40,156 nucleotides of DNA, taken from the NCBI GenBank assembly GCA_913061145.1, contig CAJXUQ010000028.1, forward strand, positions 1 to 40,156. The letters are read 5' to 3'. This stretch comes from an uncultured Haliea sp. Lineage in GTDB: Bacteria; Pseudomonadota; Gammaproteobacteria; Pseudomonadales; Halieaceae. Below the pieces are notes generated by a model, which saw only the letters and a program-made list of their open reading frames with translations, was not told the origin of the DNA and did not search any database. Positions 1 to 11,307 of the stretch are shown here, one piece after another (position 1 is the first letter of the stretch; each line of letters starts with the position of its first letter). The translations under genes and the position numbers were made by a program.

Positions 1-821
1 GGTTCATCCAGTGTGGGCGCGTGGCCGCGGTTGGCGATCTCGGCGACCACCAGGTCAGGTTTGCGCGCGCGCATGGCGGCAAGCCCCGCCGCAGACAGAA
101 TGTCTGAATGCTCTCCGCGCAGCACCAGCAGCGGCAGAGCGGACAGGGCCCCGAACACCGGCCACAGGTCAGGGGGCACGGCGTTGTCGTCGGCGGCAGA
201 CAGCGGCGTTGAGATGGCAGGATCGTAGGCGAGTTCAAGTCCCCCACCCTGGGCCCGGGAGCGATAGAGTCCCCGGGCGAAGTGCAGCCAGTCCTCGGGC
301 GAAAAGTCGGGAAAGGCAGCCCCGTTGATGGCACGGGTTTGCGCCACGGCAGCCGCCCAGTCCGCCACAGGCTCGGCCTTGCCGACATAGGCCTTGATGC
401 GCGCCAGGCCCGCGGGATCGACTTCTGGACCGATATCATTGAGTACGATCGCGCTGACCCGCGCAGGCTGCATCGCCGCCATCATCATCGCCATCAGCCC
501 ACCCATGGAGGTGCCGACCAGAACAGCGCGCTGTATCGCCTGGCTGTCCAGCAAACGGAACATGTCCTGCACATAGGTCAGGGGCTGGTAGCGTGTCGGA
601 TCAGGGTCGTAGTCGGAGCGGCCGCGGCCACGCTGGTCGGCAACCAGCACACGGTAGCGTTGCGCCAGGTGTGGGGCGAGGCCGGCAAAATCTGCGGCGT
701 TGCGGGTCAGGCCGTGCATGCACAGCGCCACAGGCGCGTCGCCGCCAGGGCCCGCGTAGTCGCGCACGTACAATGTCAAACCGTCGTCGCTGCGATACCA
801 GAGGTCGTCAAATCCACTCAC
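1..821 (-). CDS. Alpha/beta hydrolase, C-terminus cut by window edge
   Basis: Cytoplasmic alpha/beta-hydrolase fold enzyme, 273 codons visible, with the C-terminus lost at the left edge. It shows the oxyanion-hole HG (about residues 36-37, MHGLTRN), a DQRGRGRSD strand-loop (62-70), the nucleophile elbow GTSMGG with Ser105, a probable acid region LRGEHSD, and the catalytic His266 in NRGHAPTLDEP. As the His normally lies near the end, perhaps only 15-25 residues are missing. The start is GTG at 821, four bases after the ligase stop, with GGAG overlapping that stop; translational coupling is likely. There is no signal peptide. The family includes esterases, enol-lactonases and C-C hydrolases, so the substrate cannot be told. 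Being last in a receptor-ligase-hydrolase operon suggests it hydrolyses the imported compound or a derived intermediate (inference). Confidence 0.85.
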   Translation of the reverse strand, partial: MSGFDDLWYRSDDGLTLYVRDYAGPGGDAPVALCMHGLTRNAADFAGLAPHLAQRYRVLVADQRGRGRSDYDPDPTRYQPLTYVQDMFRLLDSQAIQRAVLVGTSMGGLMAMMMAAMQPARVSAIVLNDIGPEVDPAGLARIKAYVGKAEPVADWAAAVAQTRAINGAAFPDFSPEDWLHFARGLYRSRAQGGGLELAYDPAISTPLSAADDNAVPPDLWPVFGALSALPLLVLRGEHSDILSAAGLAAMRARKPDLVVAEIANRGHAPTLDE

Positions 822-825
822 AGGC

Positions 826-2397
826 TCACTCCGCAAACTGCAGTCGCAATTCCCGCTTCAGTATCTTGCCATTGGGATTGCGCGGCAAGGCGTCGATGAA
901 TTTCAGGTCAGCGAGGCGCTGCTGCTTGCCCAGCCGCGCGTTGGCCCAGGCCAGCAGCTCGCCCTCGGCCACCGCAGCCCCCGGCGCGGGGACCACCAGC
1001 GCCAGCGGAGACTCACCCCAGCGCGCGCTCGGCACGCCGATGACCGCAACATCGCTGACACAGGGGTGTTGTACCAGCACCGCCTCGATATCCTGGGGGT
1101 ATATATTCTGTCCACCGGAGAGAATCATGTCCTTCTTCCGGTCCACGATGTACAGGAAGCCCTCTGCGTCCACGTAGCCGATATCTCCGGAGCGCAACCA
1201 CTGACGCCCATTTGCATCGATGTACTGCGCCTCGGCGTTGGCATCCTCCCGGCGCCAGTACCCGGGCATGCTGATGCGACCACGGGAGACAATCTCGCCG
1301 GACACGCCGTGCGGCAGCTCCCGGTTGTGCTCATCAACAATCCGCAGGTCTGTTCCGATCAGCGGCCGCCCCACCGACGCCCATCGGCCTTCCGCGTCCT
1401 CCGGGTCCAGGGTGGTAATGATGCCCTCGGTAAGCCCGTACAGTTCAATAATGCCGCAGGGAAAATGGGCAAAGATGTCGCGCTTCAGCCCTTCACGCAG
1501 CGGCGAACCACAACTCATCATGGCCTGCAGGCTGCTCACATCGCCGCCGTGCGCCTGCAGGTGTTCCACCACCCGCTGGAACTGGATGGGCACCATGGCG
1601 GTGTGCGTGATGCGCTCGCTGGCCGCCGTGGCGACGAACGCGGCAGGGTCAAAGCGCTCGTGCAACACCAGAGTGCCGCCGGCCAGAACCGTGCAGAGCA
1701 TGGCCACCCAGGAAATATTCGAGTACAGGCCGATGGTCAGCAGGGTCCGCGCCGCACCGTGATAGCGCAAGGCAATAGCCAGGTCATAGGCCCAGTCGCG
1801 CCGGGTGCGCTGGGTATGCAGAATGCCCTTGGGCAACCCGGTCGTACCGGAGCTGTAAATGATGTTCAGGGGCGCATCAGGATCCAGCGCACGCACGACA
1901 TCCGGCAAGGTATCAGGCTGCCCGGCACAGAATACGTCCAGGGACTCCCAGGCGTCCTCACCCGGACCACTGGTGACGGTGACGCGCAGGGCGTCGGGCA
2001 ACTGCTGGAGCAGCGGTGTCAGCCGGTGCTGCTGGTCCGCCGAGACCACCAGCGCGCGAATGCCCGCATCCACCAGCATGGCGACCAGCGCCTCATCGCT
2101 GACCGAGAGGTTTATCGGCACGGATACGGCACCGGCTGCCAGGCTGCCAAACAGCACCTGCACCATCGGCAATCCGTTGGACATCACCACGCCCACGCGG
2201 TCGCCGGCGGCAATACCGCGACTTGCCAGGGCGTGTGCAAAGCGGTGATTGGACGCCGTGAACGCCCGCCAGTCGAGCGTGGTGTCGCCACAGATGACGG
2301 CCGCCCTGGGCGCCCGCCACTGACCGTGCAGAGCAAGAATTTCCGGCAACAAGGGCACCGGGGCCTCAAATCCAGTCACAGTGTCTATCCCTGTCAT
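826..2397 (-). CDS. AMP-dependent acyl-CoA synthetase/ligase (ANL superfamily)
   Basis: A 523-residue adenylate-forming ligase that should activate a carboxylic acid with ATP and join it to CoA. The phosphate-binding loop IIYSSGTTGLPKG is at 179-191. Other motifs are YGLTEG (about 321-326), RSGDIGYVDAEG with the ribose-binding Asp, the hinge DRKKDMILSGGQNIYP, and the catalytic C-terminal lysine K511 in PRNPNGKILKREL. All core motifs are intact and length is normal. It starts at ATG 2397, 43 bases after the TonB receptor stop, and a strong hairpin (2408-2428) sits in that gap. Closest in style to medium/long-chain fatty acid or aromatic acid CoA ligases; the acid cannot be named from sequence. 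The operon suggests its substrate enters through the adjacent receptor and symporter (inference). Confidence 0.9.
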   Translation of the reverse strand: MTGIDTVTGFEAPVPLLPEILALHGQWRAPRAAVICGDTTLDWRAFTASNHRFAHALASRGIAAGDRVGVVMSNGLPMVQVLFGSLAAGAVSVPINLSVSDEALVAMLVDAGIRALVVSADQQHRLTPLLQQLPDALRVTVTSGPGEDAWESLDVFCAGQPDTLPDVVRALDPDAPLNIIYSSGTTGLPKGILHTQRTRRDWAYDLAIALRYHGAARTLLTIGLYSNISWVAMLCTVLAGGTLVLHERFDPAAFVATAASERITHTAMVPIQFQRVVEHLQAHGGDVSSLQAMMSCGSPLREGLKRDIFAHFPCGIIELYGLTEGIITTLDPEDAEGRWASVGRPLIGTDLRIVDEHNRELPHGVSGEIVSRGRISMPGYWRREDANAEAQYIDANGRQWLRSGDIGYVDAEGFLYIVDRKKDMILSGGQNIYPQDIEAVLVQHPCVSDVAVIGVPSARWGESPLALVVPAPGAAVAEGELLAWANARLGKQQRLADLKFIDALPRNPNGKILKRELRLQFAE

Positions 2398-2440: not shown

Positions 2441-4690
2441 CTAGAAACGGTATTCCACTGTCGCCGTCAGCGTACGCGGGGGGGCATAGAACACGGTGGT
2501 GTTGTTTTCCAGGCCGAGGGTCGAGGGACAGCCACCTTCACCGAAACAGTACCCGGCTGTCTTGATTTCCTCGTCACCAAGGTTCTTGGCGTGCAGGCCC
2601 ACCAGCCACTGTTCGTCACCGCTCATCCAGACCAGACTGGCGTTGATCACGTCGTAGGCGTCCTGATCGATCACGGGAACCGGCGCCTCGAACTGCGTCA
2701 CATCGCCCTTGTAGGACCAGTTCAGGTTGGCGGTCAGGTCACCCGCAGCGAAATCCGTGGTGTAGGTGACGCCGAGGTACAGCATTTCCTCCGGCGTGTT
2801 CTGCACCGCGCGCTGATCGGCAACGTTCACGCCGTTCAGCAGCCACTCCTTGATCTCTGCATCGAGCAGGCTCATCGCCAGCTGCACGCTGAAGTGCTTG
2901 CTCAGCAATACGTTACCTTCCACCTCGATGCCAGAGATTTCCGCCTGGCCGGCATTGGTGACCGTACCGACAAAGCCGTCATTGATGCCGTCACCGTCGC
3001 TGTCTACGCCCACGGAGCCGGGAATCTGCATGTCCTGGTAGTCGCTGTAGAACACCGCAATGTTGGTGAGTGCGCGACCATCCAGCCAGGTAGTTTTCAG
3101 GCCCAGTTCCCATGAGTCCAGCGTTTCCGGGTCGAAGCCGCGCTCGACTTCAGGGGTGGCGAAGTTGGCGCCGCGCGGGTCGAAGCTGCCAGCCTTCCAA
3201 CCCTGGCTGTAGCTGCCATAGACCGTGGTGTCATCATTGATGGTGTAGCTGAGGTTTATCCGCGGCGAGAAATCGGTGTAGGTTTTCTCAGCCTCGTAAT
3301 CACTGGTTGTCGCCAGGAGCAGGGCGGTGTCATTGCCGAAGAACGGCGAGCCGAAGCCGAGGTAGGTACCGCGGAAAATGTCCGCGCTGCGCTTGTCTTC
3401 GGTGTAGCGGCCGCCTACCGACAGCGCCAGCGACTCAGTCAGGCGGTAGGTAACATCTGCAAACACCGACCAGGCCTCGGTATCCACGGTGCCGCCGGTG
3501 TAGGCGGTCACCGGGCCGATCTGGCCCAGCACCACGTCAAAGTCGTTGGAGGCCGTGGCGTCGAGGTAGTAGAAGCCGGCCACCGCATTCCAGCGATCGG
3601 CGTTGTACAGCATCTGGAATTCCTGGCTGAACTGTTCGTTGTCATAGACAACCGGTGCGTCAAAATCGATGACCTCCAGGCCGTCGAAGTCGATCACGGA
3701 CTCCGTGTAATCCTCACGCCAGGCGCTGATCGAACGCAGCGTCGTCGTGTCGCTTAGGTTCCAGTCCACCGACAGCATGGCGCCTTCGCCATCGATCTCG
3801 TTGTTGCCGTTGATACCTGCAGTGGCGATGGAGTCCTGGGCGCCGGCAGTGGTGTCGTAGCGGTCAGACAGCACCGGTACACCGCTAACCGCACCGGGGA
3901 AAGGCCGGTAGCCCGCCACTGGATCGGTCTTGTCGTTCAGCTTGTCGTAGGCCAGACGCACCAGCCAGTTTTCGCTGGGCAACCACTCGGCACTGGCGCG
4001 CCAGGCAAACAGGTCCTTGTCGTAGTGCTCGTCGCCAGTGGTCAGGTTCTCCCCGTAGCCATCCCGGGTGAGCGAGGCAACCGTCGCTCCCACGCGGAAT
4101 GTATCGGTCACCGGCGTTGACGCAGTGCCCACCAGGTCGAGCTGGCCATAGCTGCCATAGGAGGCCTTCAGGCGCACATCCGTTTCGTCGCTGAGGCGAC
4201 GGGTCACATACTTGATCGCCCCGCCAACCGCATTGCGGCCATACAGCGTACCCTGCGGCCCGCGCAGTACCTCCACACGCTCCACATCGTAGATATCCAG
4301 CAACGCGCCCTGCGGCCGAGCGATGTAGACGTCGTCAAGGTACAGTGCCACGCCCTGCTCAAAGCCGGCGAGGGGGTCCTGCTGGCCGACGCCGCGAATG
4401 AAGGCCGTCAGCGTGGTACTGGTCGCCCGCGAGGGCTCCAGCGTGACACTGGGAATAATCTGCGCCAGTTCGCTGATATCGGAGGCGCCGCGCAGACGCA
4501 GGGCATCGCCGGAGAGGGCCGTAACCGCGATCGGGACATCCTGTAGATTCTCCGCGCGGCGACGGGCGGTGACGACCACCTCTTCCAGAGCCAGGGCAGG
4601 ACCGTCCTGCGCCTGAACGGTGGACAGGGGCAGTGCGGAGGCCAGGGAAACGGCGAGCGCGACAGCGGAGCGCGGAGCAAATGCTTTCAT
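2441..4690 (-). CDS. TonB-dependent outer-membrane receptor
   Basis: A 749-residue outer-membrane active-transport receptor. The signal peptide MKAFAPRSAVALAVSLASAL...VQAQ (about 1-28) is followed by a TonB-box-like LEEVVVTARRRAENLQDVP. The plug has IRGVGQQDP, LYLDDVYIARPQG and VEVLRGPQGTLYGRNAVGG. A large 22-strand-type barrel ends in the canonical aromatic TATVEYRF. I chose ATG 4690 because it gives a signal peptide and has AAGGTG upstream; an upstream ATG at 4810 would translate across the operators. The loop DSDGDGINDG (near residue 560) resembles a calcium-binding EF-hand loop, and a Cys pair lies near YCFGEGGC. This broad subfamily (often labelled iron-complex receptor) is widely used for non-iron organic substrates in marine Gammaproteobacteria and sphingomonads. 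The neighbours (symporter, CoA ligase, hydrolase) favour an organic ligand (inference). Confidence 0.93.
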   Translation of the reverse strand: MKAFAPRSAVALAVSLASALPLSTVQAQDGPALALEEVVVTARRRAENLQDVPIAVTALSGDALRLRGASDISELAQIIPSVTLEPSRATSTTLTAFIRGVGQQDPLAGFEQGVALYLDDVYIARPQGALLDIYDVERVEVLRGPQGTLYGRNAVGGAIKYVTRRLSDETDVRLKASYGSYGQLDLVGTASTPVTDTFRVGATVASLTRDGYGENLTTGDEHYDKDLFAWRASAEWLPSENWLVRLAYDKLNDKTDPVAGYRPFPGAVSGVPVLSDRYDTTAGAQDSIATAGINGNNEIDGEGAMLSVDWNLSDTTTLRSISAWREDYTESVIDFDGLEVIDFDAPVVYDNEQFSQEFQMLYNADRWNAVAGFYYLDATASNDFDVVLGQIGPVTAYTGGTVDTEAWSVFADVTYRLTESLALSVGGRYTEDKRSADIFRGTYLGFGSPFFGNDTALLLATTSDYEAEKTYTDFSPRINLSYTINDDTTVYGSYSQGWKAGSFDPRGANFATPEVERGFDPETLDSWELGLKTTWLDGRALTNIAVFYSDYQDMQIPGSVGVDSDGDGINDGFVGTVTNAGQAEISGIEVEGNVLLSKHFSVQLAMSLLDAEIKEWLLNGVNVADQRAVQNTPEEMLYLGVTYTTDFAAGDLTANLNWSYKGDVTQFEAPVPVIDQDAYDVINASLVWMSGDEQWLVGLHAKNLGDEEIKTAGYCFGEGGCPSTLGLENNTTVFYAPPRTLTATVEYRF

Positions 4691-4745: not shown

Positions 4746-4761
4746 TTCAACACTTGTTGAA
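4746..4761. promoter_or_regulatory. Putative TetR operator O1, receptor promoter
   Basis: TTCAACACTTGTTGAA, a perfect TTCAAC-N4-GTTGAA palindrome. It lies just downstream of the predicted receptor transcription start (about +4 to +19). Its centre is 32 bp from O2, close to three helical turns, so two repressor dimers would sit on the same DNA face. Its assignment to the TetR protein at 6386 is inferred from placement. Confidence 0.7.
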
Positions 4762-4771
4762 TTACGCGTGA

Positions 4772-4800
4772 AACATATTCAACGTTTGTTGAAATGTCAA
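4772..4800 (-). promoter_or_regulatory. Sigma70-type promoter of the receptor-ligase-hydrolase operon
   Basis: On the minus strand, TTGACA (4795-4800) is a perfect -35, followed by a 17-base spacer and TATGTT (4772-4777) as -10. The 16-base operator O2 occupies almost the whole spacer. The predicted start is near 4765, giving a leader of about 75 bases before ATG 4690. Confidence 0.7.
4778..4793. promoter_or_regulatory. Putative TetR operator O2, inside the -35/-10 spacer
   Basis: TTCAACGTTTGTTGAA, the same TTCAAC-N4-GTTGAA palindrome as O1 and O3. It fills the spacer of the receptor promoter, so an occupied site would exclude RNA polymerase directly. This layout is typical of TetR-family repression; binding itself is inferred. 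Confidence 0.75.
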
Positions 4801-4811
4801 GCGCGATCACC

Positions 4812-6260
4812 TCATTCCGTCACAGCGTCTGCATGCCGGGTGCGCTCCCGGGTGCACCAGAGCCCCAGCAACCCGTAGGCCAGGGAGAGCAGGATCGCGT
4901 AGCTCGCGGACACCGCCGGGTTGACCACCGCACCTGACAGGTTCAGCAGCAAATGCCCGCCGAGGCCAATCAGCGCAGCGCCCACCACCACCCACAGCGG
5001 TATGTGACGACGCACCAGCACACCGAACAGCACCGGCACCAGGGACGCGGCCGCCAGCCCGTAAACGCCTTTCTGCGCAAACAGCCCAATCAGGGGCGGC
5101 GGATTCCAGGCCAGCACAACGGCAAGCAGGCCCACGGCCACCAACACGTAGCGCGACAGGGCAAGCGCGTTGTAACGCTCCCCGTACAGTGGCTGCACGA
5201 TGTCGTTGACGACCATCGCCGAAAGCGACACCAGTATTCCATCCAGTGTGCTCATACCCGCCGCGAGCAGCGTGAGGAAAATGAACACGAGGACATACTC
5301 ACCCCACAGCGATGTACCGAACTCGAACAGCAGGTATTCACGCACCACCGTGTCCTGCTCGGGAATATCGAGCCCCGCCAGCCGCGCATAGAAGCCGATC
5401 ATCAACATCAGTGTAAAGACGCTGCCGACGACCACGGTGGTGCCAATGAACTTGCCAATGTCGCGCTCACTGCGCAGATACAGCACTTTGGTCAGGATGT
5501 GGGGCTGCAGCATGAGGGCAAAGGTCACGACAAACCCGCTGACAAACACGGAAAAGAAGTCCGAGTAAAGGTCACTGCCCGCGTTGAAGGCGTCGGCATA
5601 GCCCGTTCCCACGGCGCGCAGCGCTGCCAGCGGTGCATCGCCAAAGTACTTCCAGCCCTGCACTACAAGGATCACGGTGATGGCCAGCATCATCACGCCC
5701 TGCAGCGTGTTGGTATAGGCGTGCGCATAGGTTCCGCCCATCAACACGTAAGCGAAAACAAACAGCAGCACGAGGACCAGCGCGGTTTTCTGTTCCACCG
5801 GGAACAAGCCGGTGAGCAGCAGGCTGCAACCCACCAGAATGAGCACCACAAAGGTAATCGACAGGAGATTGATGAAAGCGAAAAACAGGCTGAAACCGCG
5901 ATGGTTATAGCGGTAGAAGATCCACTGGGGGATGGTCAGGGCGTTGTGACTTTCGCCGAGGCGCAAAAAGCCCCGGGTCAGCACCAGAAACGCGCTCAGA
6001 ATTCCCAGCGAACCGGCAAGGCCGTAATGCAGATAGGCACTCAGGCCGTGGCTGTACACAAACCCCGGGTTGATCACGAAGGTGGCCGTGGAGGCGATGG
6101 ACGCGGCGAGCGTGATCCCGATCAGGTAGGGGTTCATATCCTTGTTGCCAATGGAGAACCCGCGAATATCCCGGGTTCGGCGCATACCCACCCAGGACAG
6201 CCAGAACACCAGAATCACATAGGCGAGGGACATGGCGTACTTGAACAGTTCGGGTGTCAT
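4812..6260 (-). CDS. Sodium:solute symporter (SSS family) permease
   Basis: A 482-residue inner-membrane protein with about 13 hydrophobic helices, of the sodium/solute symporter family (relatives: PutP, ActP, PanF). N-terminal SLAYVILVFWLSWVGMRRTRD and GNKDMNPYLIG, helix-breaking LAASIASTATFVINPGF, and LAAGMSTLDGILVSLSA (about 330-346), which holds the family's sodium-site Ser/Thr pattern. The start at ATG 6260 (MTPELFKY) gives a normal amino end; an in-frame upstream ATG at 6332 would overlap operator O3. It probably takes the compound delivered to the periplasm by the receptor into the cytoplasm with Na+ (inference). The substrate class (monocarboxylate, amino acid, other) cannot be fixed. 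It ends 121 bases before the receptor start, and the receptor has its own promoter. Confidence 0.88.
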   Translation of the reverse strand: MTPELFKYAMSLAYVILVFWLSWVGMRRTRDIRGFSIGNKDMNPYLIGITLAASIASTATFVINPGFVYSHGLSAYLHYGLAGSLGILSAFLVLTRGFLRLGESHNALTIPQWIFYRYNHRGFSLFFAFINLLSITFVVLILVGCSLLLTGLFPVEQKTALVLVLLFVFAYVLMGGTYAHAYTNTLQGVMMLAITVILVVQGWKYFGDAPLAALRAVGTGYADAFNAGSDLYSDFFSVFVSGFVVTFALMLQPHILTKVLYLRSERDIGKFIGTTVVVGSVFTLMLMIGFYARLAGLDIPEQDTVVREYLLFEFGTSLWGEYVLVFIFLTLLAAGMSTLDGILVSLSAMVVNDIVQPLYGERYNALALSRYVLVAVGLLAVVLAWNPPPLIGLFAQKGVYGLAAASLVPVLFGVLVRRHIPLWVVVGAALIGLGGHLLLNLSGAVVNPAVSASYAILLSLAYGLLGLWCTRERTRHADAVTE

Positions 6261-6300
6261 GGGCGCGGTCTCGCTGCATCGTATTATTGGAGTGCGCCCG

Positions 6301-6329
6301 ATTCTGACGAAAGCCCGACCGCATTTCAA
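6301..6329 (-). promoter_or_regulatory. Candidate promoter of the symporter gene
   Basis: Minus strand TTGAAA (6324-6329), 17-base spacer, CAGAAT (6301-6306), upstream of the ATG at 6260. The -35 lies in operator O3's left half-site, so a bound repressor would block it. Hexamers match consensus 4-5 of 6; moderate support. Confidence 0.5.
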
Positions 6330-6340
6330 CAAGCGTTGAA
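6325..6340. promoter_or_regulatory. Putative TetR operator O3, symporter/tetR intergenic
   Basis: TTCAACAAGCGTTGAA, third copy of TTCAAC-N4-GTTGAA, in the 125-base divergent region between the symporter start (6260) and the TetR start (6386). It overlaps the candidate symporter -35 and lies just upstream of an AT-rich stretch that could hold the tetR -10 (TATGCT, 6349-6354), so it could serve repression and autoregulation together. Confidence 0.75.
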
Positions 6341-6385: not shown

Positions 6386-7042
6386 ATGACGAAATCCCGG
6401 CAAGCACCAAAACGAGAGCGGATTCTGGATGTCGCCGAGGAGCTGTTCGCCCTGCGCGGCTATGACGGCGTTACCCTGCGCCAGATTGCCAAGGACGCCG
6501 GCGTCGATGTCGCCCTCGCCAGCTACCATTTTGGCAAGAAGCTGGACCTCTTCAACGCGGTTTTCGAGCGCCGCGCCGCACATCTGAACAGCGCCCGACT
6601 GGATGCACTGAAAGCCTGCCAGGCCTCGGCCGGCGCCGCGGGCCCCAGCGTCGAACAGATTATCGAAGCCTTCCTGCGCCCCCTGGAACTGGCCCAGGAA
6701 ACCGGTGACCCGGGCTGGCAGAACTACCTTGCACTGATCGCCTACATCAACAACTCTCCCTACTGGGGCCCACGCATGATGTCCAAGCTGTTCGACAGCC
6801 TGGTGAGTGCCTTCATAAGCGCCCTGCGCGACGCGCTGCCCGGCGCACGCGACGAAGACATCTACTGGTGCTACCACAACCTGTCCGGCGCCCTTACCCT
6901 GACACTGGCGCAGACCGGCCGCATCGACAAACTCTCCGGCGGCAAGTGCCGGTCAGCCGACTTCCAGGCCGCCTACGATCATATGATTCCCTTTGTCGCC
7001 GCGGGCTTTCGCGAGGTATGCGGACGCGCGAACGGGCGGTGA
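6386..7042 (+). CDS. TetR/AcrR-family transcriptional regulator
   Basis: A 218-residue one-component regulator. The N-terminal TetR DNA-binding domain spans about residues 8-60: RERILDVAEELFALRGYDGVTL, then the helix-turn-helix RQIAKDAGVDVALASYHFGKK with the family's typical Y-x-x-F-K/G-x-K end. The C-terminal ligand domain (FLRPLELAQETGDPGWQNYL and onward) resembles the CecR/YbiH-like class. I prefer ATG 6386 (GGGCGGA upstream) over ATG 6350, which has no ribosome site. Divergent from the symporter, with the palindrome O3 between them and two more at the receptor promoter. Most likely a local repressor relieved by the transported compound or its CoA thioester (inference). Confidence 0.92.
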   Translation: MTKSRQAPKRERILDVAEELFALRGYDGVTLRQIAKDAGVDVALASYHFGKKLDLFNAVFERRAAHLNSARLDALKACQASAGAAGPSVEQIIEAFLRPLELAQETGDPGWQNYLALIAYINNSPYWGPRMMSKLFDSLVSAFISALRDALPGARDEDIYWCYHNLSGALTLTLAQTGRIDKLSGGKCRSADFQAAYDHMIPFVAAGFREVCGRANGR

Positions 7043-7098: not shown

Positions 7099-8160
7099 AT
7101 GATGCAATGGCTTGAAACCGCGGTAGCCCTTTTCCCGGCCGGCGTGGTCGTGGCCCTGACGGCGGCGCTCATCGGTGCCGGCTACTGGCTCGCCAGGCGC
7201 CAGGATGCGGGCACGGAGACCCTGCTGTTCCAACTCGGTGTGTGGCTGACAGGCTCCGCCGGCATCATTGCCTGCGTGGTCGTGCTGCCGATCAGCGATG
7301 AGACCCAGGGACAGATTCTGGGCTTGCTGGGGGTTCTGCTCACCGCGGTGATTGCGCTCTCATCCACGACCTTCGTTGCCAACGCCATGGCGGGAATCAT
7401 GTTGCAGACCACGCAACCCTTCCGCCCGGGCGACTACCTGCGGGTGGGTGAGCAGTTTGGCCGGGTCACCCGGCGCTCGCTGATCAACACCCAGTTGCAG
7501 ACCGAAATGCGTGACATGACGACATTGCCGAACATGTTGCTGGTCGCGAATCCAATCACCGTTATGCACCGCGACGGCACCATCATCTCCGCAGAGGTGT
7601 CATTGGGCTACGACATACCCTACACCGACGTTCAGGACCTGTTGTTGCAGGCCGCGGAAAACGCCGGCCTCAGCGATCCCTTTGTCCTGCTGCTGGAGCT
7701 GCTGGATCACGCCGTGCTGTACCGGATATGCGGGTTCCTGACCGAAAGCAAGACGCCGCTCACCGCACGCTCCAATCTGCGCAAGAACATGCTGGAACAG
7801 TTGCACGGACACGGCATCGAGATCGTCTCGCCGAGTTTCGTCAACCAGCGCCGGCAGGACCCGGCCAGCAAGGTCATCCCCGCCACACCGGTGATGCATG
7901 CCGGCACATCCCGCCGCGCAGAGGCGGCACCCGAGGAGCGCATTTTCGACAAGGCGGAGGAAGCTGCCACACTGGAGCAGTTAAAGGACGAGCGCGGCGC
8001 CACCAAGGAAGCACTGGCCGCCGCCATCGACCGGCGCGAAGCCGCGGCAGACCAGCAGAAACCTGCGTTGGAGGAGGAAGTTCGTCAACTGGAGCTGCGC
8101 GATGCCTGGCTTCAGGAGCGCATTGAGCAGGAAGAGGAACCGAAGAGCAAAACCTCGTAG
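7099..8160 (+). CDS. MscS-family mechanosensitive ion channel protein
   Basis: A 353-residue inner-membrane protein. Three hydrophobic segments (about 6-30, 42-66, 74-95) precede a pore/beta-domain junction typical of MscS: ALSSTTFVANAMAGIMLQTT, then the beta-domain FRPGDYLRVGEQFGRVTRRS and MTTLPNMLLVANPITV. An alpha/beta region follows (SAEVSLGYDIPYTDVQDLL). The C-terminal 90 residues are charged and predicted coiled coil (EEAATLEQLKDERGATKEAL...), longer than in plain MscS. It would open under membrane tension to release solutes on osmotic downshift. It starts 56 bases after the TetR stop on the same strand, with GAGG before ATG 7099; co-transcription with tetR is possible but unproven. Confidence 0.85.
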   Translation: MMQWLETAVALFPAGVVVALTAALIGAGYWLARRQDAGTETLLFQLGVWLTGSAGIIACVVVLPISDETQGQILGLLGVLLTAVIALSSTTFVANAMAGIMLQTTQPFRPGDYLRVGEQFGRVTRRSLINTQLQTEMRDMTTLPNMLLVANPITVMHRDGTIISAEVSLGYDIPYTDVQDLLLQAAENAGLSDPFVLLLELLDHAVLYRICGFLTESKTPLTARSNLRKNMLEQLHGHGIEIVSPSFVNQRRQDPASKVIPATPVMHAGTSRRAEAAPEERIFDKAEEAATLEQLKDERGATKEALAAAIDRREAAADQQKPALEEEVRQLELRDAWLQERIEQEEEPKSKTS

Positions 8161-8786: not shown

Positions 8787-10247
8787 ATGAATGCACCACA
8801 GAGTATTGGATCCATAGAGGACATCGAACAGCGCATGCAGCAGGTCCTTGATGCGCAGCGCCAGGATTACCTGCGCGAGGGCGTGGTCTCTGCCGAGACG
8901 CGCATCGACCGCATCGACCGCGGCATTGACGTGCTGCTCAAGTACCAGGGCAAAGTGGTCGACGCGCTGAACACCGATTTCAGCTGCCGTGCGCGCGAGG
9001 TCAGCCTGCTGACCGACGTTGCCGCCTCGGTCACGCCCCTCAAGCATGCACGCAAACACCTGCGCAAATGGATGAAGCCGCAGCGACGGCCCACCATGTT
9101 TCCGCTTAACCTGCTCGGCGGGCGCTCCCGCATCGAGTACCAGCCACTGGGTGTCGTCGGTGTCATCTCACCCTGGAATTTCCCGGTCAACCTGACCTTT
9201 GGACCGCTGGCCGGCATACTTGCCGCAGGCAACCGCGCGTTGATCAAGCCCTCGGAGTTCACTCCCGCCACCAGTGAAGTGATGGCCGAGATGGTCGCCG
9301 AAGCCTGGGATGAAAAGGAAGTCGCGCTGTTCACCGGGGGGCCGGAGGTCGGCCAGGCTTTTTCCGGGCTGGCCTTCGACCATCTGCTGTTCACCGGCGC
9401 CACCTCGGTTGCGCGGCACATCATGACCGCCGCCGCACGCAACCTGGTACCGGTAACGCTGGAACTGGGTGGCAAGTCTCCCGTGATCATCTCCCGCAGT
9501 GCCGACATTGAGAAAAGCCTGGAACGGATCATGCTCGGTAAAACCCTGAATGCGGGACAGATCTGCCTGGCGCCGGATTACCTGATGGTGCCCGAGGAAA
9601 AACTGGACGAGGTTATCGCCGCCGCCCAGAAGGCGGTAAGCGCCATGTATCCCACCATTCTCGACAACCCGGAGTACACCGCGGTGGTCAACCAGCGCCA
9701 CTATGAGCGTCTGACAGGCTACCTCCGGGAAGCCGAGGAGCGCGGTGTAAAGACGATTCCGATCAACCCGGCCGGCGAGAACTTTGCATCGGGTGAAGGC
9801 AGCCGCAAGATTCCACCCACACTGATTCCACAGCCGGCGGAAGACCTGAAAGTCATGCAGGAGGAACTGTTCGGCCCGCTGTTGCCGATTCGCACCTACA
9901 AGGACTTCAACGAAACCATCGACTACGTCAACGCGCATCCCAGGCCCCTGGCCGCCTATTACTTCGGGCAGGACAAGAGCGAGGAACGCGCGGTGCTGAC
10001 GCGCACCACCTCCGGCGGTGCCTGCATCAACGACGTCATCATGCACATCATGCAGGAGGAACTGCCCTTCGGCGGCGTGGGTCCCAGCGGTATGGGTGCC
10101 TACCATGGCGAGGAGGGGTTCCGCACCTTCAGCCATGCCAAGTCGATCTATCGCCAGGCGGGCGTGAATGTGGGCAAACTTGGGGGCATGCTACCGCCCT
10201 ATGGCAAAGCCACAGAGAAAACCATCAGTATGCAGGTCAAGAAGTAA
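8787..10247 (+). CDS. Coniferyl-aldehyde-type NAD(P) aldehyde dehydrogenase
   Basis: A 486-residue cytosolic aldehyde dehydrogenase of the coniferyl aldehyde dehydrogenase (CalB-like) group, oxidising an aldehyde to its acid with NAD(P)+. Motifs: GVVGVISPWNFPVNL (cofactor binding), ALIKPSEFTP with the conserved Lys, FTGATSVARHIM, the general base Glu in VTLELGGKSPV, the nucleophile Cys in NAGQICLAPDY, and EELFGPLLPI. The C-terminal ELPFGGVGPSGMGAYHG is typical of this group. The start at ATG 8787 (GAGGATAAGAG upstream) matches family ends better than 8754. In Gammaproteobacteria this family usually handles general medium-chain or lipid-derived aldehydes, so the coniferyl label need not mean lignin metabolism. 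It precedes the glycerophosphodiesterase by 13 bases. Confidence 0.9.
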   Translation: MNAPQSIGSIEDIEQRMQQVLDAQRQDYLREGVVSAETRIDRIDRGIDVLLKYQGKVVDALNTDFSCRAREVSLLTDVAASVTPLKHARKHLRKWMKPQRRPTMFPLNLLGGRSRIEYQPLGVVGVISPWNFPVNLTFGPLAGILAAGNRALIKPSEFTPATSEVMAEMVAEAWDEKEVALFTGGPEVGQAFSGLAFDHLLFTGATSVARHIMTAAARNLVPVTLELGGKSPVIISRSADIEKSLERIMLGKTLNAGQICLAPDYLMVPEEKLDEVIAAAQKAVSAMYPTILDNPEYTAVVNQRHYERLTGYLREAEERGVKTIPINPAGENFASGEGSRKIPPTLIPQPAEDLKVMQEELFGPLLPIRTYKDFNETIDYVNAHPRPLAAYYFGQDKSEERAVLTRTTSGGACINDVIMHIMQEELPFGGVGPSGMGAYHGEEGFRTFSHAKSIYRQAGVNVGKLGGMLPPYGKATEKTISMQVKK

Positions 10248-10260
10248 CGGGCGAGGCGGG

Positions 10261-11307
10261 ATGAGGCGCCTGCAGCGGCTTCGTCATCTCGCCCTGATCA
10301 GCGCTATCCTGCTACCATGGGCGGCTATGACAGCCGCCGCTTCCCTTCCCATCGTGATCGCCCACCGCGGCGCCAGCGGCTATCTGCCGGAACATACCCT
10401 CCCGGCCAAGGCCATGGCCCACGCGATGGGTGCCGATTTCATCGAACAGGATGTCGTGCTGACCCGCGACGGCGTGCCCGTAGTGCTGCACGACATCCAC
10501 CTGGACGCCACCACCGACGTCGCGGCGCGCTTTCCCGACCGGGCGCGGGCTGATGGGCGCTACTACGCGATTGACTTCAGCCTCGACGAGATCCGCAGCC
10601 TGCGCGCGCAGGAACGACTGGGCAGCGACGGGCAAGCGGTCTATCCGGGTCGCTTCCCGGCGCACACGGGGAATTTCCGGGTGCCGACACTGGCCGAGGA
10701 GATCGACCTTATCAGCGGCCTCGACCACAGTCGCCAGCGCCGCACCGGGCTCTACATTGAACTCAAGGGCCCCCGCTTTCATCGCAACGAGGGCCAGGAT
10801 ATTGCCCTGCGGGTGCTCGAGGTATTGCGCGAGAAAGGCTACGACCAACGCACGGGGCAGGTATTCCTGCAGTGCTTCGACGATGTCACGTTGCGCTATC
10901 TGCGACACGAGCTGCAAACGCCCCTGCCCCTGATCCAGCTCATTGCCGACCCGGGCTGGGGCGAGGACAGCGCCGTCGACTATGCGTTTCTGCAAACTGC
11001 CGCCGGGCTCGACGACGTCGCCCGCTATGCCGACGGCATCGGTCCGTGGCTGGAACAGATCTACCTGGGCCGCGATGCCAACGGCGAGCCGCTGCTCAGC
11101 GACCTGGTTGCGCTGGCCCATGCCCGTGGCCTGCAGGTGCACCCCTATACGTTCCGCGCCGATGCATTGCCCGAGGGGATCGACAGCTTTACCGCCCTTC
11201 TCGACCTGTTCTTCAATCAGGTGGGCGTGGACGGGGTCTTCACCGACTTCCCCGACCTCGCCCGTGAATTCTTGCAGGATCACCGCCAACACAGGAACCA
11301 ACAGTGA
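10261..11307 (+). CDS. glpQ: Periplasmic glycerophosphodiester phosphodiesterase
   Basis: A 348-residue exported GDPD-family enzyme that hydrolyses glycerophosphodiesters from phospholipid turnover to glycerol-3-phosphate and an alcohol. The signal peptide LALISAILLPWAAMTAAAS covers about residues 10-28. The catalytic barrel opens with IAHRGASGYLPEHT (His35, Arg36), then metal ligands FIEQDVVLTRDG (Glu62, Asp64) and the second catalytic His in VLHDIHLD, followed by YIELKGP and GVFTDFPDLAREFL near the end. Length and the long insert match GlpQ more than the short cytosolic UgpQ. Start ATG 10261 has GAGGCGGG just upstream and gives a clean signal peptide. Its stop overlaps the next start (GTGA). 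Confidence 0.88.
   Translation: MRRLQRLRHLALISAILLPWAAMTAAASLPIVIAHRGASGYLPEHTLPAKAMAHAMGADFIEQDVVLTRDGVPVVLHDIHLDATTDVAARFPDRARADGRYYAIDFSLDEIRSLRAQERLGSDGQAVYPGRFPAHTGNFRVPTLAEEIDLISGLDHSRQRRTGLYIELKGPRFHRNEGQDIALRVLEVLREKGYDQRTGQVFLQCFDDVTLRYLRHELQTPLPLIQLIADPGWGEDSAVDYAFLQTAAGLDDVARYADGIGPWLEQIYLGRDANGEPLLSDLVALAHARGLQVHPYTFRADALPEGIDSFTALLDLFFNQVGVDGVFTDFPDLAREFLQDHRQHRNQQ

Follow-up and report, generated by a model that had tools for sequence, protein, structure and literature searches.

A TetR-Family Regulator and Its Putative Palindromic Operators at a Local Nutrient-Uptake Cluster of Haliea, with a Possible Role in the Use of PHB-Derived 3-Hydroxybutyrate

The DNA analyzed here (the window) is a stretch of 40,156 nucleotides from an uncultured Haliea sp. 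(GenBank assembly GCA_913061145.1, contig CAJXUQ010000028.1), in which a TetR-family gene (tetR) is accompanied by three palindromes of the form TTCAAC-N4-GTTGAA. We consider it probable that the encoded protein is an autoregulated local repressor that would occlude the promoters of an uptake system for a nutrient of the 3-hydroxybutyrate (3HB)/PHB type. The predicted regulon consists of tetR itself, a sodium/solute symporter gene, and an operon for a TonB-dependent receptor, an acyl-CoA ligase, and a hydrolase (Table 1). The initial annotation had interpreted the palindromes as the operators of a private TetR regulon; this interpretation is supported, having survived both a search for unlinked copies and an inspection of orthologous loci. 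To it we add the extent of the operon (receptor, ligase, and hydrolase), the promoter geometry, and a probable function in PHB/3HB use.

Results

Table 1. Features of the tetR locus in the window and, in the last two lines, operator-associated reductase genes at two other loci
Feature	Position	Strand	Basis or remarks
TetR-family regulator, TetR_N + TetR_C_30 (PsrA/NicR2-like)	6386..7042	+	profile matches, structure model
Sodium/solute symporter (SSF family)	4812..6260	-	divergent from tetR
TonB-dependent outer-membrane receptor	2441..4690	-	after symporter, same strand
AMP-forming acyl-CoA ligase	826..2397	-	gene directly after receptor
alpha/beta-Hydrolase-like gene	3..836	-	cut by contig end; relatives have an alpha/beta hydrolase after the ligase, in the same place
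Putative operator O1, TTCAACAAGCGTTGAA	6325..6340	.	tetR/symporter divergent promoter region; overlaps predicted TTGAAA -35 of symporter
Putative operator O2 (distal), TTCAACGTTTGTTGAA	4778..4793	.	inside 17-bp spacer of TonB-receptor promoter
Putative operator O3 (proximal), TTCAACACTTGTTGAA	4746..4761	.	immediately past predicted -10, in start-site region; O2-O3 spacing 32 bp
Predicted receptor-operon promoter, sigma-70 type	4772..4800	-	TTGACA 4800-4795, 17-bp spacer, TATGTT 4777-4772; 10/12 consensus matches
Symporter promoter-like site (prediction)	6301..6329	-	TTGAAA 6329-6324, 17-bp spacer, CAGAAT 6306-6301; 9/12 consensus matches
FabG-like reductase with operator, locus L173	4146-5081		PRK08217 above cut-off
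FabG-like reductase with operator, locus L121	5134-5959		PRK08217 above cut-off

A rescan of the window returned exactly three exact matches to the palindrome, at the positions first annotated and with the identical half-sites described there. Allowing up to two mismatches added none, so that the motif is indeed confined, within the window, to the two intergenic regions flanking the symporter gene. One hundred dinucleotide shuffles of the window gave a mean of 0.59 matches, and none of the 100 reached three. O1-O3 are likewise the sole exact matches in the whole assembly (3,521,245 bases, or 3.52 Mb, in 53 contigs, 97.8% complete), where the reversed control gave none. The original description also noted that the four central bases differ among the sites; they are not free, as the center reads R-N-N-Y in 122 of the 124 sites at orthologous loci. 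When the assembly was searched with the RNNY form and up to two mismatches, 16 matches were found versus 16 for the control, and this lack of excess gives no sign of a wider regulon in the host genome; the sole additional site of this form with one mismatch is at C2:17136.

The tetR gene and the symporter gene beside it, as first annotated, are both real genes. The NCBIfam matches listed for the symporter, the receptor, and the ligase (the best 25 for the receptor and the best 25 of 106 for the ligase) all fall below cut-off, and subfamily names for these three proteins were dropped. The name of the hydrolase rests on its relatives because no NCBIfam profile matches the window protein at 1e-20. 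By its nearest named loci, those of Halieaceae bacterium UBA5044 (98%) and Haliea alexandrii (95%), the host falls with Haliea. An MscS-like channel gene (7099-8160) and an aldehyde dehydrogenase gene (8787-10247) come after the regulator in the window; both recur near the regulator in Halieaceae, in 7 and 16, respectively, of 53 loci by ORF clustering, and no operator lies beside either gene in the window.

Profile matches to PF00440 (53.7 bits, cut-off 24) and PF17939 (122.7 bits, cut-off 26.3) place the regulator in the TetR family. Its AlphaFold model (mean pLDDT of 90.1) has the all-helical TetR fold and matches TetR structures in the PDB; the closest solved fold is NicR2 (PDB 5FGL/5FHP), with a TM score of 0.78-0.81 on the query and 24-25% identity. 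PDB 2FBQ/PA3006, which we take to be PsrA, is 23% identical to the regulator in the structure comparison and ∼24% identical by alignment (49 identities over 206 columns).

PsrA deserves attention, as it tops the NCBIfam matches of the regulator, which is in turn the sole full-length match to the PsrA profile in the host genome. PsrA sites are given as TTCAAACN4GTTTGAA and GAAACN4GTTTC, with the consensus C/GAAAC-N2-4-GTTTG/C, in passages of PMC13104628, and they resemble the palindrome described here. A plain PsrA orthologue governing fatty-acid degradation is nevertheless improbable. The match amounts to 89.7 bits (89.1 in a second search), far under the cut-off of 300, for a model that may be narrow, its name pointing to Vibrio and its cut-off being exceeded in 0 of 14 control genomes, and the identity to 2FBQ is low. 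The local sites depart from the PsrA consensus, having a half-site one base shorter, and the host has only three exact sites, whereas reconstructed PsrA regulons have a mean of 11.1 genes per genome according to passages of PMC5343134. The assignment was rejected on score, identity, and operator. The position of a site near the regulator's own gene and the conservation of the palindrome support a dimer binding there; the protein is predicted to act like a local repressor of the PsrA/NicR2 type, and we do not file it as PsrA.

Conservation was examined in two collections. The family sample contained 140 genomes, including the window's own, with the regulator called at E ≤ 1e-80 and the results sorted by hand from tables. 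The motif is present in 42 of the 42 genomes that have the regulator, counting G019, where the match is split over two pieces, and G138, where it covers residues 24-214; it is present in 11 of the 98 others, at 12 sites (p = 7.5e-26). The second collection began with 104 relatives in named genomes, from which 80 loci were kept. Exact sites occur in 52 of the 54 loci whose regulator is at least 58% identical and in none of the 26 with remoter homologues. The two exceptions are L132, which has a site with one mismatch, and L142, for which the stored DNA starts 53 bases before the match. Because the two collections overlap (the L086 contig matches that of G020), their counts cannot be treated as independent; near-identical strains also account for some of the loci. 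Among all 6-Nx-6 words counted in the 200 bp upstream of tetR, the motif ranks first, with exact copies at 49 of 53 loci. On the shuffles, the uniqueness in the assembly, the co-occurrence within the family, and this word count, a chance origin of the palindromes was rejected.

The symporter (E ≤ 1e-100) is found in 40 of the 140 family genomes, and all 40 also have a tetR orthologue. Receptors that have been displaced keep their operator pair, whether 4.4-6.6 kb from O1 (L100 and L101), ∼180 kb away (G001), or on other contigs (G003 and G004). G112 has one operator between the regulator and the ligase gene, and the symporter and receptor genes are absent from the 18 kb examined.

Several loci show other arrangements. 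At L183 (genome G024, 9325-10401), the regulator was recovered only as a 3' fragment immediately beside the hydrolase gene, and the symporter and the motif are absent from that genome; the locus looks like a remnant, as if the rest had been removed in one deletion. The TonB receptors of L099 and L102, from genomes named Parahaliea, are 42-44% identical to that of the window, versus 77% in L093, which suggests that the receptor was replaced and the operators were kept. In L123 and L119, no symporter gene was found between the divergent regulator and receptor genes, which directly flank the tandem pair. The alphaproteobacterial homologues at L138, L139, and L140 (46-49%) have receptor and ligase homologues nearby and an altered recognition helix. 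No motif within two mismatches occurs in the 300-400 bp upstream of them, where L139 and L140 have only short palindromes, and they probably use another operator.

In front of the receptor gene, the operators form a tandem pair; among 31 exact pairs, the spacing is 32 bp in 15 and ranges from 27 to 34 bp. In many loci where an exact partner is lacking, a site with one mismatch takes its place. Upstream of the receptor gene, L120 retains one site only and L137 has no site. We aligned 47 pairs of exact or one-mismatch sites (from the window, the named loci, G001, and G004). The distal site fills the promoter spacer, next to a TTGAC[A/T] hexamer in 44 of the 47 pairs (TTGACA in 37 and TTGACT in 7); one of the 3 other pairs belongs to the L121 depolymerase gene and was read in the wrong orientation. 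At the aligned -10 position, the first base is T in 96%, the second is A in 81%, and the sixth is T in 91%. The receptor promoter of the window reads TTGACA-T-operator-TATGTT, in agreement with the promoter prediction. The geometry at O1 is not conserved as it is at the receptor, and a fixed promoter arrangement at that site was dropped because the flanking columns are only weakly conserved. Since the distal site lies in the -35/-10 spacer and O1 overlaps the -35 hexamer predicted for the symporter gene, repression would likely proceed by occlusion of RNA polymerase. The transcript could also fold each palindrome into a 6-bp stem with a 4-base loop, but a scan for terminators reports nothing at the sites, and O2, in the predicted promoter spacer, lies upstream of transcription. 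We rejected an RNA stem-loop or terminator on these two grounds and regard its probability as negligible.

The composite of promoter and operator was then searched, with up to one mismatch, in an order-wide sample of 390 genomes that included 18 members of the host's family. It occurs in 35 of the 390; the reversed control gave 4 matches in 4 genomes. Outside the family, 17 of the 25 genomes with the composite have the regulator (E ≤ 1e-40): a tetR orthologue is present in 14 of the 15 with an exact composite and in 3 of the 10 whose composites all have one mismatch. One genome (G432) has an exact composite and no regulator, and tblastn over 18 kb of it detected no cluster gene. The predicted regulator/operator circuit is conserved over several families of one gammaproteobacterial order.

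The exact copies in G432 and in the 11 family genomes devoid of tetR would fit a palindrome that belonged to a different regulator encoded elsewhere, with tetR a mere neighbor, and the binding of the TetR protein is itself predicted from sequence. Such a reading is very improbable, however, given that every family genome with tetR has the motif, that the sites persist where the targets sit away from tetR, and that they are absent in G024, where only the 3' fragment of tetR was found. The 12 family sites without tetR include 11 whose surroundings were searched by tblastn with the cluster proteins, and no match was obtained around any of these 11, nor in G432. The stray sites fall in long open frames in 11 of 11 cases examined, versus 78 of the 124 sites that accompany the regulator, and have a frame of at least 100 bp on both sides in 8 of 11 versus 26 of 124 cases. 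O1-O3 of the window also fall in long open frames; position in a frame discriminates only weakly between stray and locus sites, and we do not rely on it. The pairing of the TetR protein with these operators can be considered highly probable.

The gene content of related clusters bears on the nutrient. A 3HB dehydrogenase above the TIGR01963 cut-off lies beside the cluster in L125, L132, and L259, and the dehydrogenase of L107 is above the PRK12429 cut-off and below that of TIGR01963. In three genomes, PHB depolymerase genes above the NF050058 cut-off are preceded by operator-like sites. The depolymerase gene of L121, next to the regulator, has a promoter-like TTGACA-N18-TATGAT enclosing a site with one mismatch, and a second site with exact halves and a non-RNNY center follows 32 bp on. 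That of G047, on a contig other than that of tetR, has two exact sites, the first in the arrangement TTGACA-N-operator and the other 37 bp further along, with a poor -10. G236 brings together in one cluster the regulator, dehydrogenase, hydrolase, receptor, symporter, and depolymerase, and TTGACA with a single adjoining one-mismatch site stands at its depolymerase gene. In L134 and L135, a depolymerase gene (151.9 and 154.1 bits, cut-off of 150) is near the receptor gene, and no site with up to two mismatches occurs in the gap just upstream of it. A FabG-like reductase (PRK08217, above cut-off) also has an operator in two genomes, those of L121 and G014, in the latter on another contig.

The system is read as one for the use of PHB-derived 3HB or its oligomers because of the dehydrogenases and depolymerases in the clusters of these other genomes, and we regard PHB/3HB as a fairly likely substrate. 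Growth on DL-3-hydroxybutyrate is described in passages of PMC3679898 for Chromatocurvus halotolerans, whose genome has the cluster (L100), and equally for all the other strains compared with it. Neither a PHB depolymerase nor a 3HB dehydrogenase exceeds its cut-off in the host genome, where the best matches score 53.5 bits (cut-off of 150) and 191 (cut-off of 307), respectively, and a depolymerase above cut-off occurs in only 5 of the 140 family genomes. The host would therefore use products released by others, or a related compound. These absences, in a host whose cluster has a ligase, also fit a different nutrient, such as another hydroxy-acid ester, a short-chain acid, or a lipid-like compound, with the operator and regulator as described and the PHB genes as add-ons in some lineages. 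The TonB receptors beside the regulator are 36-98% identical, which may mean different cargo, and neither the ligase nor the symporter has a specific family match. The operators that precede PHB depolymerase genes in three genomes and the 3HB dehydrogenases that adjoin the cluster in several loci argue against another nutrient, and we consider this alternative rather unlikely.

Discussion

These findings support a model in which the TetR protein would bind as a dimer to TTCAAC-RNNY-GTTGAA and regulate its own gene along with its neighbors, with O1 placed between tetR and the divergent symporter gene, and O2 and O3, about three helical turns apart, at the promoter of the receptor-ligase-hydrolase operon. 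Repressor bound at O2, between the -35 and -10 elements, would exclude RNA polymerase. In the presence of an inducer, the repressor would be released and the receptor, symporter, ester hydrolase, and acyl-CoA ligase made, the TonB receptor serving for uptake across the outer membrane and the Na+/solute symporter for uptake across the inner one. As the nutrient, we regard 3-hydroxybutyrate or its oligomers, set free from the polyester PHB, as the most likely, and the inducer would most likely be 3HB, an oligomer, or the CoA thioester.

The full proposal, of a regulator-defined polyester utilization locus with TonB-dependent uptake of 3HB oligomers from PHB, Na+-driven import, intracellular hydrolysis and activation, and switching by a PsrA/NicR2-like TetR repressor with a new operator, is put forward tentatively. 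If it is true, Haliea-type bacteria would scavenge PHB fragments that the depolymerases of other species set free. An otherwise anonymous TetR gene gains a defined putative operator, a probable mode of promoter control, a predicted set of target genes, and a candidate ligand class. Should the PHB reading be true, the operator could serve as a marker in searches for genes that degrade polyester in the sea, and the receptor would be a candidate TonB-dependent importer of PHB oligomers. We found no paper with the exact operator strings, and among the titles and abstract openings listed in a search of literature on 3HB/PHB with TonB receptor, TetR, symporter, or depolymerase, no such regulon appeared; passages of PMC10100682 name PHB once and do not name a depolymerase.

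The predicted locus can be compared with several known systems. Utilization loci centered on a TonB receptor (CUT/PUL-like loci) similarly combine a receptor, an inner-membrane transporter, enzymes, a local regulator and, in some members, a secreted hydrolase, whereas the locus described here points to a polyester monomer or oligomer and not to a glycan. PhaR and HbcR share with the present regulator the control of PHB or 3HB metabolism, HbcR being a 3HB/PHB regulator, and belong to protein families other than TetR. PhaR is, according to abstracts, a PHB-granule-associated regulator of storage and not of extracellular uptake. NicR2, the regulator of nicotine degradation, is the closest solved fold and a local repressor of a catabolic cluster, for another substrate pathway. 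PsrA, which governs fatty-acid use in Pseudomonas, is alike in its TetR fold, in the AAC-N4-GTT dyad core with TTCAA flanks, in having a site at its own gene, and in its connection with acyl-type metabolism. It differs in its half-site, which is TTCAAAC or GAAAC in PsrA and TTCAAC here, and in its broad regulon, in contrast to the local one predicted for the Haliea regulator.
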